From JBFLYE01 sp040756715 [NCBI: bacterium] (GTDB taxonomy: Bacteria; UBA9089; UBA9088): a stretch of DNA of 11,118 nt. The position numbers and the translations under genes are program-made. Shown piece by piece: positions 606 through 3,697 of this stretch. Positions within the stretch are counted from its first letter, which is position 1; the number at the start of each line of letters is the position of its first letter. Below the pieces are notes generated by a model. It was not told where the DNA came from. It was given only the letters and a program-made list of their open reading frames with translations, and searched no databases. Location of the stretch: assembly GCA_040756715.1 (NCBI GenBank), contig JBFLYE010000004.1, positions 1 through 11,118 on the forward strand. Direction: 5' to 3'.

Positions 606-710
606 TATCTATCGTCGCAATGAAAGATTTTGGAAAAGATTATAAAGATTATAAAAGTATGAGGGTGGTTAAACCTAACCGCCCGGAAAGGTTTTTATAT
701 AAAATCAAAG

Positions 711-738
711 GCAGGTTCAATAAAGAGCCGGCTTTTTT
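711..738 (+). terminator. terminator-like stem-loop upstream of the ribosome binding site
   Basis: GCAGGTTC (711-718) and GAGCCGGC (725-732) form an 8-bp stem with one mismatch and one G-U pair around the loop AATAAA, directly followed by TTTTTT (733-738). It lies inside the leader of the secreted-protein gene, before its strong Shine-Dalgarno. It therefore suits premature termination (attenuation) better than termination of the upstream TPR gene, whose stop is 145 bases earlier and on the far side of the promoter. Confidence 0.5.
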
Positions 739-742
739 ATTT

Positions 743-748
743 AGGAGG
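743..748 (+). promoter_or_regulatory. strong Shine-Dalgarno AGGAGG deciding the ATG at 757
   Basis: AGGAGG lies eight bases before the ATG at 757. This is the best ribosome binding site in the window and shows that the intended start of the secreted protein is 757, not the TTG at 869 that opens the long frame. Confidence 0.75.
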
Positions 749-756
749 TCAGTGAA

Positions 757-868
757 ATGAAAAGAGGAATCTTTGAGATTTTGATGGCGGTGGGATTTAT
801 GGCTTGCAAGATAGCCTGGGCTTAAGACTTATGTTTCTGGGACAATTACAGGTGATACAACCTGGAAT
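757..868 (+). pseudogene. signal-peptide part of the beta-helix gene, separated from it by a one-base frameshift
   Basis: From the ATG at 757 the frame encodes 22 residues, MKRGIFEILMAVGFMACKIAWA, then TAA at 823-825. It has a basic start, a hydrophobic stretch and a typical AWA signal peptidase site, but no mature protein follows in frame. One base over, from 824, the sequence reads KTYVSGTITGDTTWN and runs without a stop into the long frame that opens formally at TTG 869. Removing one T from the CTT at 821-823 would give AWA followed by KTYVSG, a normal export-signal junction. The hydrophobic core also carries Glu7 and Lys18, which would weaken export. Either the gene is decaying or the assembly has an extra base. 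The strong ribosome binding site shows this was the real N-terminus. Confidence 0.75.
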
Positions 869-3697
869 TTGACAGGAAGCCCATATATTGCAACCGATAC
901 CGTATATGTCGCCAATGGAGTTAAATTGACCATTGAGCCAGGGGTAACCGTAAGGTTCGCAACAGAAACATCTTTAATCTGCTATGGCACATTGAATGCT
1001 ATTGGCAATCCTACAGGAACAATTACATTTACCTCCAGCCAGACTACACCATCTGCAGGCGATTGGAAAGGGATTAAGCTTTCTGGAAGTGGAGCAAGCG
1101 GAAGTCAGATAAGCTGGTGCAATATAGGGTATGCAAAGCAGGCGGTTTATTTGGAAAATATATCTTCTATTGTGATTATAAATAATTATATCCACGACAA
1201 TAAAGGAAATGATGGTGGATTACTTGGTGAAATAGGTTGTGGGATATATCTTTATCAATCAACAAACAATATAATATCAGAAAATTCAATCTTCCAAAAT
1301 ACAGGTGGCCAAGGAGGAAGAACTAGTTGGGACGGTGTAGGTGGTAGAGGCGGAATTGGTTGTGGAATCTATCTTTCAAATTCAACAAACAATGCAATAT
1401 CAGAAAATACAATATTAAATAATACAGGAGGTAATGGAGGAGCAGGAGATGGCCATAGTGCAGGTGGCCAGCCTGGTAATGGCTATGGAATATATATTGA
1501 GTCAAATAGCTATAATAATACAATTACAACTACGAATACCTATAACAATGAGCCAATCCATTATTACTGCAATCAAGCAGGAATTACTATTGAAAATCAA
1601 ATATTAACCCTGGCTGGCTCTGGCTCAACCAATCTGGGAAGGATTGTCTTAATCAATTGTTCTAATTTTACAATAAGAAACAACACAATTTCTGGTGGAA
1701 TTGGCCAGAATGGAATAACCGGTAGCTATGGGAGTTCAGGTGGCCCTGGTGGCATTGGCTGTGGAATTTACCTTGAAACATCAACCAATGGTACAATTAC
1801 CAATAACACAATATTCCAAAACACAGGAGGTCGGGGAGGAGCGGGTGGCTTGTGGGGTTCAAATGGCAGTCCTGGACAGTGCTATGGAATATACTCCATC
1901 TCAAACTCTAATCCCACCATTCATTGCAACAACCTCTCTGCCAACAAAAACGGCGACTTAACCAAAGGCTATGGTGTCTATCACGATGGAAGTTCTGGAA
2001 CAATCTCTGCTACTTACAATTGGTGGGGAGCAAATTCAGGTCCAGAGCATCCCATAACAAATCCATCAGGTCAGGGTGATAAGGTATCTGATTGGGTTGA
2101 TTATAGACCTTATCTTACTGGAACATTTACAGGACCAAGTGTTTCGCTTGTTCCAACATCAGGGTTAATTGGAACAGAAGTAAAGATTGAAAGCTATGGC
2201 TTTGCCACAGAAAGCACAATTTCCATTACCTTCGCCACCCACTCCACCATCACCACCACCCAATCAAGCCCCCTCGGCACTTTCTCCACAACCTTTGTCG
2301 TAAGCACCCAATCCCCTGGCACAAAGGTTATTACCGCCACAGATTCCTATGGAAACTATGCCACCACGACATTTATCCTCCTTCCACCCACCTTCTTAAG
2401 GGTTATTCCACAATCAAGGATTGTGGCAAAAGGGGATGAATTTGTTAGCGAGATAAAGATTGATGATGTCAGGAATATGGCCGTGGTTGGGGTTTATCTA
2501 TCGTTTGACCCAGATGTGCTTGAGGTTTCTACAATAACAGAGGGAGGATTTCCTTCAGGTGGAATGGTGATGAAGAAAACATTTAACAATGCAAATGGAC
2601 ATATTGATTATAGTGTTGGTCTTTTATCAGGCTCATCATCTGGTTCGGGTGTTTTATGCTCAATAAGGTTTAGAGGAAAGGAGGGTGGAACCTCAAGCAT
2701 TAGGTTTGACTTTGATATTTTAGGCAATCGCAATACAAAGATTATAGATACACAAAGCAATCTTATTCCATTTAACAAAGAAGAATCTTTAATCTATGTT
2801 GCCACAGGGCTTTCCATCTTTCCAAAGGATAAAACAATAATGGCAGGAAATAGCCAAATTTATAATGCCTATGCTATTTGCGGAGGATTAAATGTAGATG
2901 TTACTGGCTCAACCACATTTACCTCAAACGGTGGGGGTTCCTGGACAACTAATTCCTTTGAGGCACATTACATTGGAACTTACACTATAACAGGAACATT
3001 CTTAAGCTTAATGGGAACAACAAGTGTAATTATAACCCCAGGAACACCAACCAGCCTTATTTATGTCTCAGGCAATAACCAAACCCAAAATTGCCAAGAA
3101 ACCTTAGCAAACCCATTTGTTTGTAAGGTAGAGGATTTTTACCACAACCCTTGCGATGATGTCTTAATAGATTGGGAAATTACAGAAAATCCCATTGGTG
3201 CATCTGGATTTAGCCTATCAGCCACACAGACTTTAACAAACCTACAGGGAACATCGGCAACCTACCTTACCTTAGGAACAGAGCCACCTGGGACTTGGAC
3301 CATTGAGGCAAGAAATACATCCCTTTCTGGTTCACCGATTATCTTTAAAGCCTATTCTCTAAGAAGGTTTGGCTCAATCTCGGGAACCTCTCTTATTGAT
3401 CGAGGAACAGAGGCACAAAGACAAGCTGGAATATTAGTAAGATTGGTTGAAACCGGAGAGACAAAAACAACAAATGCAGACTCTTACTTTATCTTTAGCA
3501 ATATTCCAGTAGGAACCTATACTTTATCCTTTACCTACCCTGGGGCAACCCCAGCTACAAAAACCGATGTCTTGATAACCAAAACCCAATTTAATGACAC
3601 CACAGACATTGGAACAATAACCCTAATTGCTGGAGACCCCAATGGAGATGGCCAGATAAATATCTTAACTGGCCATCTTAGGAAAACCCCTCTTTAA
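869..3697 (+). CDS. secreted parallel beta-helix protein with cohesin-like and carboxypeptidase-regulatory-like domains (frameshifted at both ends)
   Basis: A large extracellular or surface protein; its ligand is unknown. Numbering from TTG 869: residues 15-35 hold the ANGVKLTIEPGVTVRF entry motif typical of bacterial right-handed beta-helix proteins. Residues 90-360 are helix rungs with NNTI/ENSI turns and glycine-rich insertions recurring every 41 residues. The closing motif YNWWGANSGP is at 383-392. Residues 424-505 form an Ig-like repeat rich in Thr/Ser, and about 508-645 resemble a cohesin fold (VVGVYLSFDPDVLEV). Residues 645-830 look like further Ig-like modules, 833-920 a carboxypeptidase-regulatory-like module (NIPVGTYTLSF), and 922-931 half a dockerin EF-hand (GDPNGDGQIN). 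The frame then ends abruptly. The true start is the signal peptide at 757, one frame away, so 869 is only a formal start. Domain calls come from sequence style; no enzyme active site is visible. Confidence 0.8.
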   Translation: MTGSPYIATDTVYVANGVKLTIEPGVTVRFATETSLICYGTLNAIGNPTGTITFTSSQTTPSAGDWKGIKLSGSGASGSQISWCNIGYAKQAVYLENISSIVIINNYIHDNKGNDGGLLGEIGCGIYLYQSTNNIISENSIFQNTGGQGGRTSWDGVGGRGGIGCGIYLSNSTNNAISENTILNNTGGNGGAGDGHSAGGQPGNGYGIYIESNSYNNTITTTNTYNNEPIHYYCNQAGITIENQILTLAGSGSTNLGRIVLINCSNFTIRNNTISGGIGQNGITGSYGSSGGPGGIGCGIYLETSTNGTITNNTIFQNTGGRGGAGGLWGSNGSPGQCYGIYSISNSNPTIHCNNLSANKNGDLTKGYGVYHDGSSGTISATYNWWGANSGPEHPITNPSGQGDKVSDWVDYRPYLTGTFTGPSVSLVPTSGLIGTEVKIESYGFATESTISITFATHSTITTTQSSPLGTFSTTFVVSTQSPGTKVITATDSYGNYATTTFILLPPTFLRVIPQSRIVAKGDEFVSEIKIDDVRNMAVVGVYLSFDPDVLEVSTITEGGFPSGGMVMKKTFNNANGHIDYSVGLLSGSSSGSGVLCSIRFRGKEGGTSSIRFDFDILGNRNTKIIDTQSNLIPFNKEESLIYVATGLSIFPKDKTIMAGNSQIYNAYAICGGLNVDVTGSTTFTSNGGGSWTTNSFEAHYIGTYTITGTFLSLMGTTSVIITPGTPTSLIYVSGNNQTQNCQETLANPFVCKVEDFYHNPCDDVLIDWEITENPIGASGFSLSATQTLTNLQGTSATYLTLGTEPPGTWTIEARNTSLSGSPIIFKAYSLRRFGSISGTSLIDRGTEAQRQAGILVRLVETGETKTTNADSYFIFSNIPVGTYTLSFTYPGATPATKTDVLITKTQFNDTTDIGTITLIAGDPNGDGQINILTGHLRKTPL
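1235..1891 (+). repeat. 41-residue (123-bp) glycine-rich repeats inside the beta-helix
   Basis: The motif G[CY]GIY[LI] followed by STNN-type turns, an NTGG stretch and a Gly-rich loop begins at residues 123, 164 and 205 (nt 1235, 1358, 1481). It begins again at residue 297 (nt 1757), with a last GIYS 41 residues further on. The exact 41-residue spacing is kept although the glycine loops differ. This is coding tandem duplication, degenerate at DNA level, and suggests two of these blocks flank a non-repeated stretch of about 90 residues. Confidence 0.6.

Follow-up and report, generated by a model that had tools for sequence, protein, structure and literature searches.

What kind of leader RNA precedes the secreted-protein gene near the start of the window, by which we mean the whole stretch of 11,118 nucleotides analyzed here? 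An initial annotation had proposed a transcription-attenuating riboswitch, in which the loop of a GC-rich hairpin would pair either with a downstream pseudoknot partner or with the 5' arm of an intrinsic terminator.

The leader and its gene in the window

The promoter, leader, GC-rich hairpin, terminator, run of six T, AGGAGG, and ATG named in that annotation were each located in the sequence, all on the forward strand. A sigma-70-type promoter (575-605) was read from the sequence as TTGCAA (575-580), a 19-nt spacer, and TATAAT (600-605). This -35/-10 spacing is long, and the promoter is not among the 31 matches of a simple promoter scan, which allows spacings of 16-18 nt only. A leader ORF of 46 codons (620-760) begins with the ATG at 620, crosses the terminator in the phase named frame A below, and ends with TGA (758-760), so placed that the stop overlaps the ATG of the secreted-protein gene as ATGA. 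The GC-rich hairpin (663-684) has 8 pairs, formed by GGGTGGTT (663-670) and AACCGCCC (677-684) around the loop AAACCT (671-676). Positions 661-668 are those of a simple-repeat tract, which in relatives holds G runs of up to 11 or GA runs of up to 27 nt and of which only GAGGGTGG remains in the window. The TAA at 676-678 lies in frame C, which is not the frame of the leader ORF in the window. This TAA is the local version of a stop codon common to all related leaders. Leader comparison placed the most conserved stretch, (A)GGTTTTTATATAAAAT, at 689-705, including the AGGTTT (689-694) proposed as the pseudoknot partner. The intrinsic terminator (711-738) consists of a stem at 711-732, with AGGTTC at 713-718, and six T at 733-738, and is followed by the Shine-Dalgarno sequence AGGAGG (743-748) and the start codon ATG (757-759), which together span 743-759.

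The gene itself (757-3697) encodes a secreted right-handed beta-helix protein and, compared with its paralogues, carries a frameshift. Reading from ATG 757 ends after 22 codons at TAA 823-825, and the body lies in another frame as an ORF at 869-3697, the frameshift following the signal peptide (757-869). The gene ends abruptly at 3640-3697, within what we take to be a dockerin-type repeat (GDPNGDGQINIL..). From the sequence, the frameshift and the abrupt end may mark a pseudogene or an assembly error. The window protein, on which alone Pfam was run, matches Beta_helix.

Folding of the window leader was compared with 200 shuffled sequences. The hairpin alone (661-686, -14.5 kcal/mol, z -3.85), the terminator alone (706-738, -12.4, z -4.45), and the entire leader (z -3.13) were each equalled by none of the 200. 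For the hairpin with 14 further bases (661-700), the fold contains the hairpin and is unable to represent the pseudoknot; it had a z of -2.45, matched by 4 of the 200 shuffles. The window terminator was one of 9 matches in a terminator scan, yet shuffles average 12.3, so the case for its reality comes from its conservation in relatives; simple promoter and terminator scans do not by themselves lift the site above chance. The initial annotation had seen no fit to the c-di-GMP, TPP, SAM, fluoride, preQ1, or guanidine consensus sequences. A search of the full window against Rfam 15 gave no match at gathering scores, and relaxing the cutoff to an E of 10 for 540-860 brought up sub-threshold matches only, with E ≥0.4 and none credible.

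Related leaders and their common anatomy

Related leaders numbering 18 were found in four genomes of one order: 3 in the window's genome (G000), 11 in a genome of the same genus (G001), and 2 each in G003 and G004, which belong to another family of that order. One assembly per species was compared, and in these no locus shows two different tract lengths. A DNA search with the window leader returned two further full copies in its own genome, on contigs C58 and C10, together with many more weak matches there that were short or covered the promoter-like part only. In the same search, 3 of 61 genomes (its own included) matched at E ≤0.001, among them G001 and G060; the G060 match, considered as a leader copy, was rejected by eye as apparent coding sequence matched by chance. 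No more than 18 relatives from the same phylum were available to this search, so the organism presumably falls outside large phyla such as that of Streptococcus. More leaders came from G001, G003, and G004 through a covariance model from 10 leaders followed by a GA-repeat pattern, the two in G004 being found by a pattern that itself ends in TAA. The leader recurs before other secreted-protein genes, which the annotation had named as a supporting sign.

A second covariance model (R2) took 16 of the 18 leaders as its input and matches those by construction. Run on the same 19 genomes, it added no credible member; both covariance-model searches scored 150 candidates per genome. A G016 match to the second model (E 0.035) was rejected by eye as a family leader, as it precedes an apparent rpsL, and on reading, weak first-model matches (E 0.1-1) at G000:C74 and G001:C133 were put down to chance. 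The truncated leader at G001:C100 is excluded from every count of 18. One pattern scan of genome contigs gave 12 stretches that by eye were chance, without the surrounding promoter-tract-terminator layout, and three pattern scans of viral contigs gave 2, 0, and 0 stretches, both collections being ones that may omit records close to the window's genome.

The leaders have a common order: promoter, leader ATG, purine tract, TAA or TAG, intrinsic terminator, Shine-Dalgarno sequence, and gene. In all 18 the best promoter-like pair precedes the leader ATG, the -10 having been sought by the script only 3-20 nt before that ATG, and in 15 the -35 is TTGCAA or TTGACA. The leader ATG, chosen by eye in every case, begins 5-14 nt after the predicted -10 in 18/18 leaders; because of this short distance, the leader ORF would be nearly leaderless, and most would have no room for a Shine-Dalgarno site. 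After the tract, TAA (13 leaders) or TAG (5) stands at the equivalent place in all 18, with 40-63 nt between the first base of the ATG and the first base of the stop. Terminator hairpins, whose stems were positioned by eye, are present at the equivalent site in 17 leaders, and 16 of these 17 have at least 5 T within the next 9 nt. An automatic fold search recovers 15 of the 18 terminators (z -2.3 to -6.6) and misses those of C78, G004:C124, and C226. The frame-C stop lies 25-38 nt from the terminator stem in 15 of 17 leaders and 55 and 62 nt from it in the other two (C123 and C172). The terminator arms vary between leaders on both sides, as in GCAGGTTC/GAGCCTGC, GCAACGGC/GCTGTTGC, and GCAAGCC/GGCTTGC. 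Exceptions to the layout are G001:C226, which lacks a terminator and stops early, G000:C58, with three T after the stem, and G000:C10, with a mismatched stem.

Gene starts could be placed for 17 leaders, C226 being the exception. Judged by eye, 14 of the 17 products resemble secreted right-handed beta-helix proteins and those of C10 and G004:C124 resemble other secreted proteins; C58 shows 32 residues only. Matches to the N-terminal domain in G001 span nearly its whole length in 12 of 14 cases, and 8 of those 12 proteins carry the leader. Among the other four, C221 and C209 have none within the available 141 and 221 nt, and C119 has none; at G001:C151 the promoter is present, with a dispersed repeat instead of the leader core. 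This dispersed palindromic repeat (CCCCTTC..GAAGGGGTGGCAGA..TCTGACGGGGTAG..ACACCCCGTC..), seen at L005, L007, L082, L088, L084, and L217, sits between leader and gene or replaces the leader core. A separate repeated unit with AAAAAGGTTTTTATATAAAAATAGCCC, whose second copy TATATGAAAATAGCCC lies about 70 nt away, was noticed at L041 (Deltaproteobacteria MAG Dive96_bin3.294) and judged from its context to be unrelated.

Reading frames and simple-repeat tracts

Frames were named after the data had been seen, with C holding the common stop and A and B being the remaining two. Of the 18 leader ATGs, 4 lie in frame A (the window, C165, C130, and C172), 3 in frame B, and 11 in frame C, the last proportion having P 0.014 against one third and being compatible also with a fixed short leader peptide. 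In 15 leaders no stop interrupts the ATG frame before the tract ends; C78 and C205 stop directly after the G run, and C226 ends after 3 codons. Counting C78 and C205, the ORF is open through the tract in 17/18. Over the same stretch one of the two non-ATG frames contains stops in all 18 leaders and the other in 10, the first figure being inflated by ATGA, which includes TGA. For the same reason, that any ATG-A start contains TGA, the ATGA overlaps are weak evidence.

The three frames meet the terminator differently. Frame C ends ahead of it, frame A crosses the whole stem in all 17 leaders that have one, and frame B enters or crosses the stem in 16 of 17, ending 6 nt before it in the remaining case, G004:C178. 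In 16 of 17 leaders A and B are both open as far as the stem while C is closed, a combination that dinucleotide shuffles produce with a probability of 0.004-0.09 per leader; these probabilities do not multiply, because the leaders are related by descent. We considered whether frame A might be a selected protein, with the common motifs PKRFLYK and SNSRKQFLYR, and dropped this idea, as no frame has a clear synonymous excess and B scores above A. For 16 of the 18 leaders, synonymous changes in frame A were 0.24 versus 0.229 in shuffles, which is no excess, and an amino-acid similarity test gave z of 6.3 for frame B, 3.4 for A, and 3.2 for C, all inflated by relatedness.

A long simple repeat, defined as a G run of at least 7 or a GA run of at least 10 nt, occupies the purine tract of 13 leaders as G7-G11 or as GA runs of 10-27 nt. 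The longest G run is 3 to 11 in ten leaders, and the other eight have GA runs of 10-27 nt, one of which adjoins CA repeats; tract unit and length vary between paralogous leaders. Frame C is used by 10 of the 13 long-tract leaders and by 1 of the 5 without a long tract. Searched with up to one mismatch, a pattern of a GA tract followed by TAA occurred 14 times in G000-G004, versus once for the reversed pattern. Exact GA tracts of at least 15 nt number 11 in these five genomes, 5 of them within the leaders, three within short MLRERE-type ORFs (G003:C178, C204, and C218), and the remaining three within other short ORFs (G001:C7, C38, and C61). Elsewhere, GA tracts of 11-14 nt were coding-like where read, except at G001:C22 and in the leaders G003:C189 and G004:C124. 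Of the five G runs of at least 9 in G001, 3 are in these leaders and the other 2 in coding repeats. In the comparison as a whole, the sequences establish the architecture, the common stop, the frames, the terminators, and the repeats at an equivalent place.

The MLRERE-type ORFs with GA repeats (L186, L123, and L125, the three G003 loci above) look by eye like a second kind of leader, each leading to a strong terminator-like hairpin. Secreted-looking genes lie downstream of G003:C178 and C204, and in C178 one frame appears by eye to cross the hairpin.

Attenuation models and their alternatives

The leader probably acts as a translation-controlled transcription attenuator of the pil1 type, phase-variable where its tracts are long, and we put the probability of this reading at about 0.6. 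RNA polymerase would start just ahead of the small leader ORF. In frame C, ribosomes would leave at the TAA or TAG some 25-38 nt before the terminator, the hairpin would form, and transcription would mostly stop, leaving the gene low or off. In frames A and B, reached by gain or loss of repeats, ribosomes would enter or cross the terminator and block the hairpin, and the secreted-protein gene would be transcribed. The long G or GA tracts of the relatives could slip and flip the state at random. The window copy, with its tract lost and frame A read through up to the ATGA, would be locked on at the RNA level, although the gene behind it carries a frameshift. Translation of the leader ORF, termination, blocking of the terminator by ribosomes, and repeat slippage are steps that we infer from this arrangement.

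Two well-known kinds of system resemble parts of this model. In leader-peptide attenuators of the trpL type, a short ORF is followed by a terminator some tens of nucleotides past its stop, and the ribosome decides the outcome; the present leaders have the same short ORF and spacing, but we found neither a conserved antiterminator nor a run of codons for one amino acid common to the leaders. Simple-repeat contingency loci carry mono- or dinucleotide tracts in the coding regions or promoters of surface proteins. The tracts described here likewise stand before or in secreted-protein genes, but in a separate leader ORF ahead of a terminator. Contingency loci of surface proteins are also mentioned in the report on the closest precedent, the pil1 operon of Streptococcus gallolyticus (Danne et al. 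2014; PMC3894217).

According to that report, GCAGA repeats in the pil1 leader ORF shift its frame, a short peptide that stops 39-49 bp before the terminator gives low expression, and longer peptides that end 4 bp before or inside the terminator give high expression (PMC3894217). Deletion of the terminator locks expression high, mutation of the leader start makes it low, and a mutant with stops in all frames is slightly above the low state (PMC3894217). The likeness to pil1 and pil3 extends to a promoter, a leader ORF, simple repeats (in 13 of 18 leaders here, the window copy retaining only GAGGGTGG), a downstream surface-protein gene, and one frame that stops tens of nucleotides before an intrinsic terminator while the others reach or cross it. 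The differences are that S. gallolyticus has GCAGA repeats, an ORF led by a ribosome-binding site, and two pilus operons, with the mechanism proven there and inferred here; in our leaders, which occupy at least 18 loci across four genomes of another lineage, the tracts are of G or GA, the ATG lacks a Shine-Dalgarno sequence and lies almost at the predicted start of the transcript, and the stop codon keeps a fixed position.

The riboswitch proposal may now be weighed against the same set of leaders. It would have the RNA bind a ligand or a protein through an H-type pseudoknot, with a GGG../..CCC stem and an AACCU/AGGUU second helix. Of the 18 leaders, 10 were aligned for this comparison; 93% of cells pair in the second helix, mostly through one-sided changes compatible with G-U, and hairpin and pseudoknot together pair in 85% of cells versus at most 72.5% when slid by 1-3 columns. 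The near invariance of GGTTTTTATATAAAAT across leaders, for which the phase-variable attenuator model gives no explanation, and a 5' part that folds at z ≤-2 in 6 of 17 leaders are also consistent with such an RNA. However, in these 10 leaders the covariation score of hairpin plus pseudoknot was reached in 136 of 500 column shuffles, and no measure rose above shuffles. The first stem is made of the variable repeat: G runs or GA repeats of varying length take the place of the GC hairpin's 5' strand in relatives, and the hairpin structure is not conserved. The 5' part has z >0 in 5 of 17 leaders (four GA-type leaders of G001 and G004:C124), the GA-type G003 leaders, where they fold, use another stem by eye, and a match to Rfam is lacking. 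The supposed pairing of upstream sequence with the 5' arm of the terminator is likewise not conserved; it was mildly above shuffles in the window (z -1.7), C165 (-1.1), and C10 (-0.6), and z was >0 in 14 of 17 leaders. The attenuator layout before a secreted-protein gene stands; the comparison speaks against the ligand binding and mutually exclusive pairings. On comparative grounds the riboswitch reading fails, and a pseudoknot RNA of this type seems very improbable; what the leaders do conserve is a reading frame that has a stop codon ahead of the terminator.

Another reading is a classical leader-peptide attenuator without phase variation, in which the short frame-C peptide is functional and the position or speed of the ribosome decides termination. 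The 11 leaders in frame C encode short peptides, most ending at the common stop, and the distance from stop to terminator is like that of trp leaders. Against this, 7 of 18 leaders are outside frame C, the peptides have by eye little in common beyond the part encoded by the G or GA tract, and there is no conserved antiterminator, the tracts varying in unit and length; we regard it as unlikely. A promoter, leader, and signal-peptide cassette might instead have been copied before paralogous genes without any regulatory role, carrying repeats and terminators as passengers. The leaders do mostly precede one paralogous family with a signal-peptide start in common, and at some loci the dispersed repeat substitutes for the leader core. 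Mere copying fits poorly with terminator stems that are retained with differing arms (GCAGGTTC, GCAACGGC, and GCAAGCC) and with a stop codon that is retained in 18/18 leaders across two families despite divergence between ATG and tract, and we consider it decidedly unlikely.

If the phase-variable attenuator is taken as the working model, its wider meaning is more tentative. At somewhat less than even odds, we suggest from the sequences that an order far from Streptococcus has independent repeat-driven attenuators with nearly leaderless ORFs at at least 18 loci in four genomes, 11 of them in one, which would turn single beta-helix surface proteins on or off randomly and produce combinatorial surface variation. 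In the literature searched, phase variation through a leader ORF and terminator was demonstrated only for S. gallolyticus pili (PMC3894217); two Lactobacillus pilus papers cite that work, one speculating that another pilus operon may act alike. If true, an independent set with mono- and dinucleotide repeats at many loci in another lineage would suggest that such a switch evolves repeatedly and governs whole surface-protein repertoires. The case also calls for caution, in that promoter-leader-terminator layouts can mimic riboswitches.

Slippery tracts were also seen in other settings. On the reverse strand of G004:C72 (L130), upstream of a secreted-looking protein gene, TTGACA and a TAAAAT-like -10 have a G9 tract in their spacer; from this placement, the site is likely a phase-variable promoter. 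At G001:C22 (L182) and G001:C7 (L118), related secreted-looking proteins (..FAEDLRWGF..) have a GA tract within their N-terminal coding part or immediately upstream, where translational phase variation is possible. The arrangements at G004:C72 and G001:C22 would fit a lineage that uses slippery tracts.
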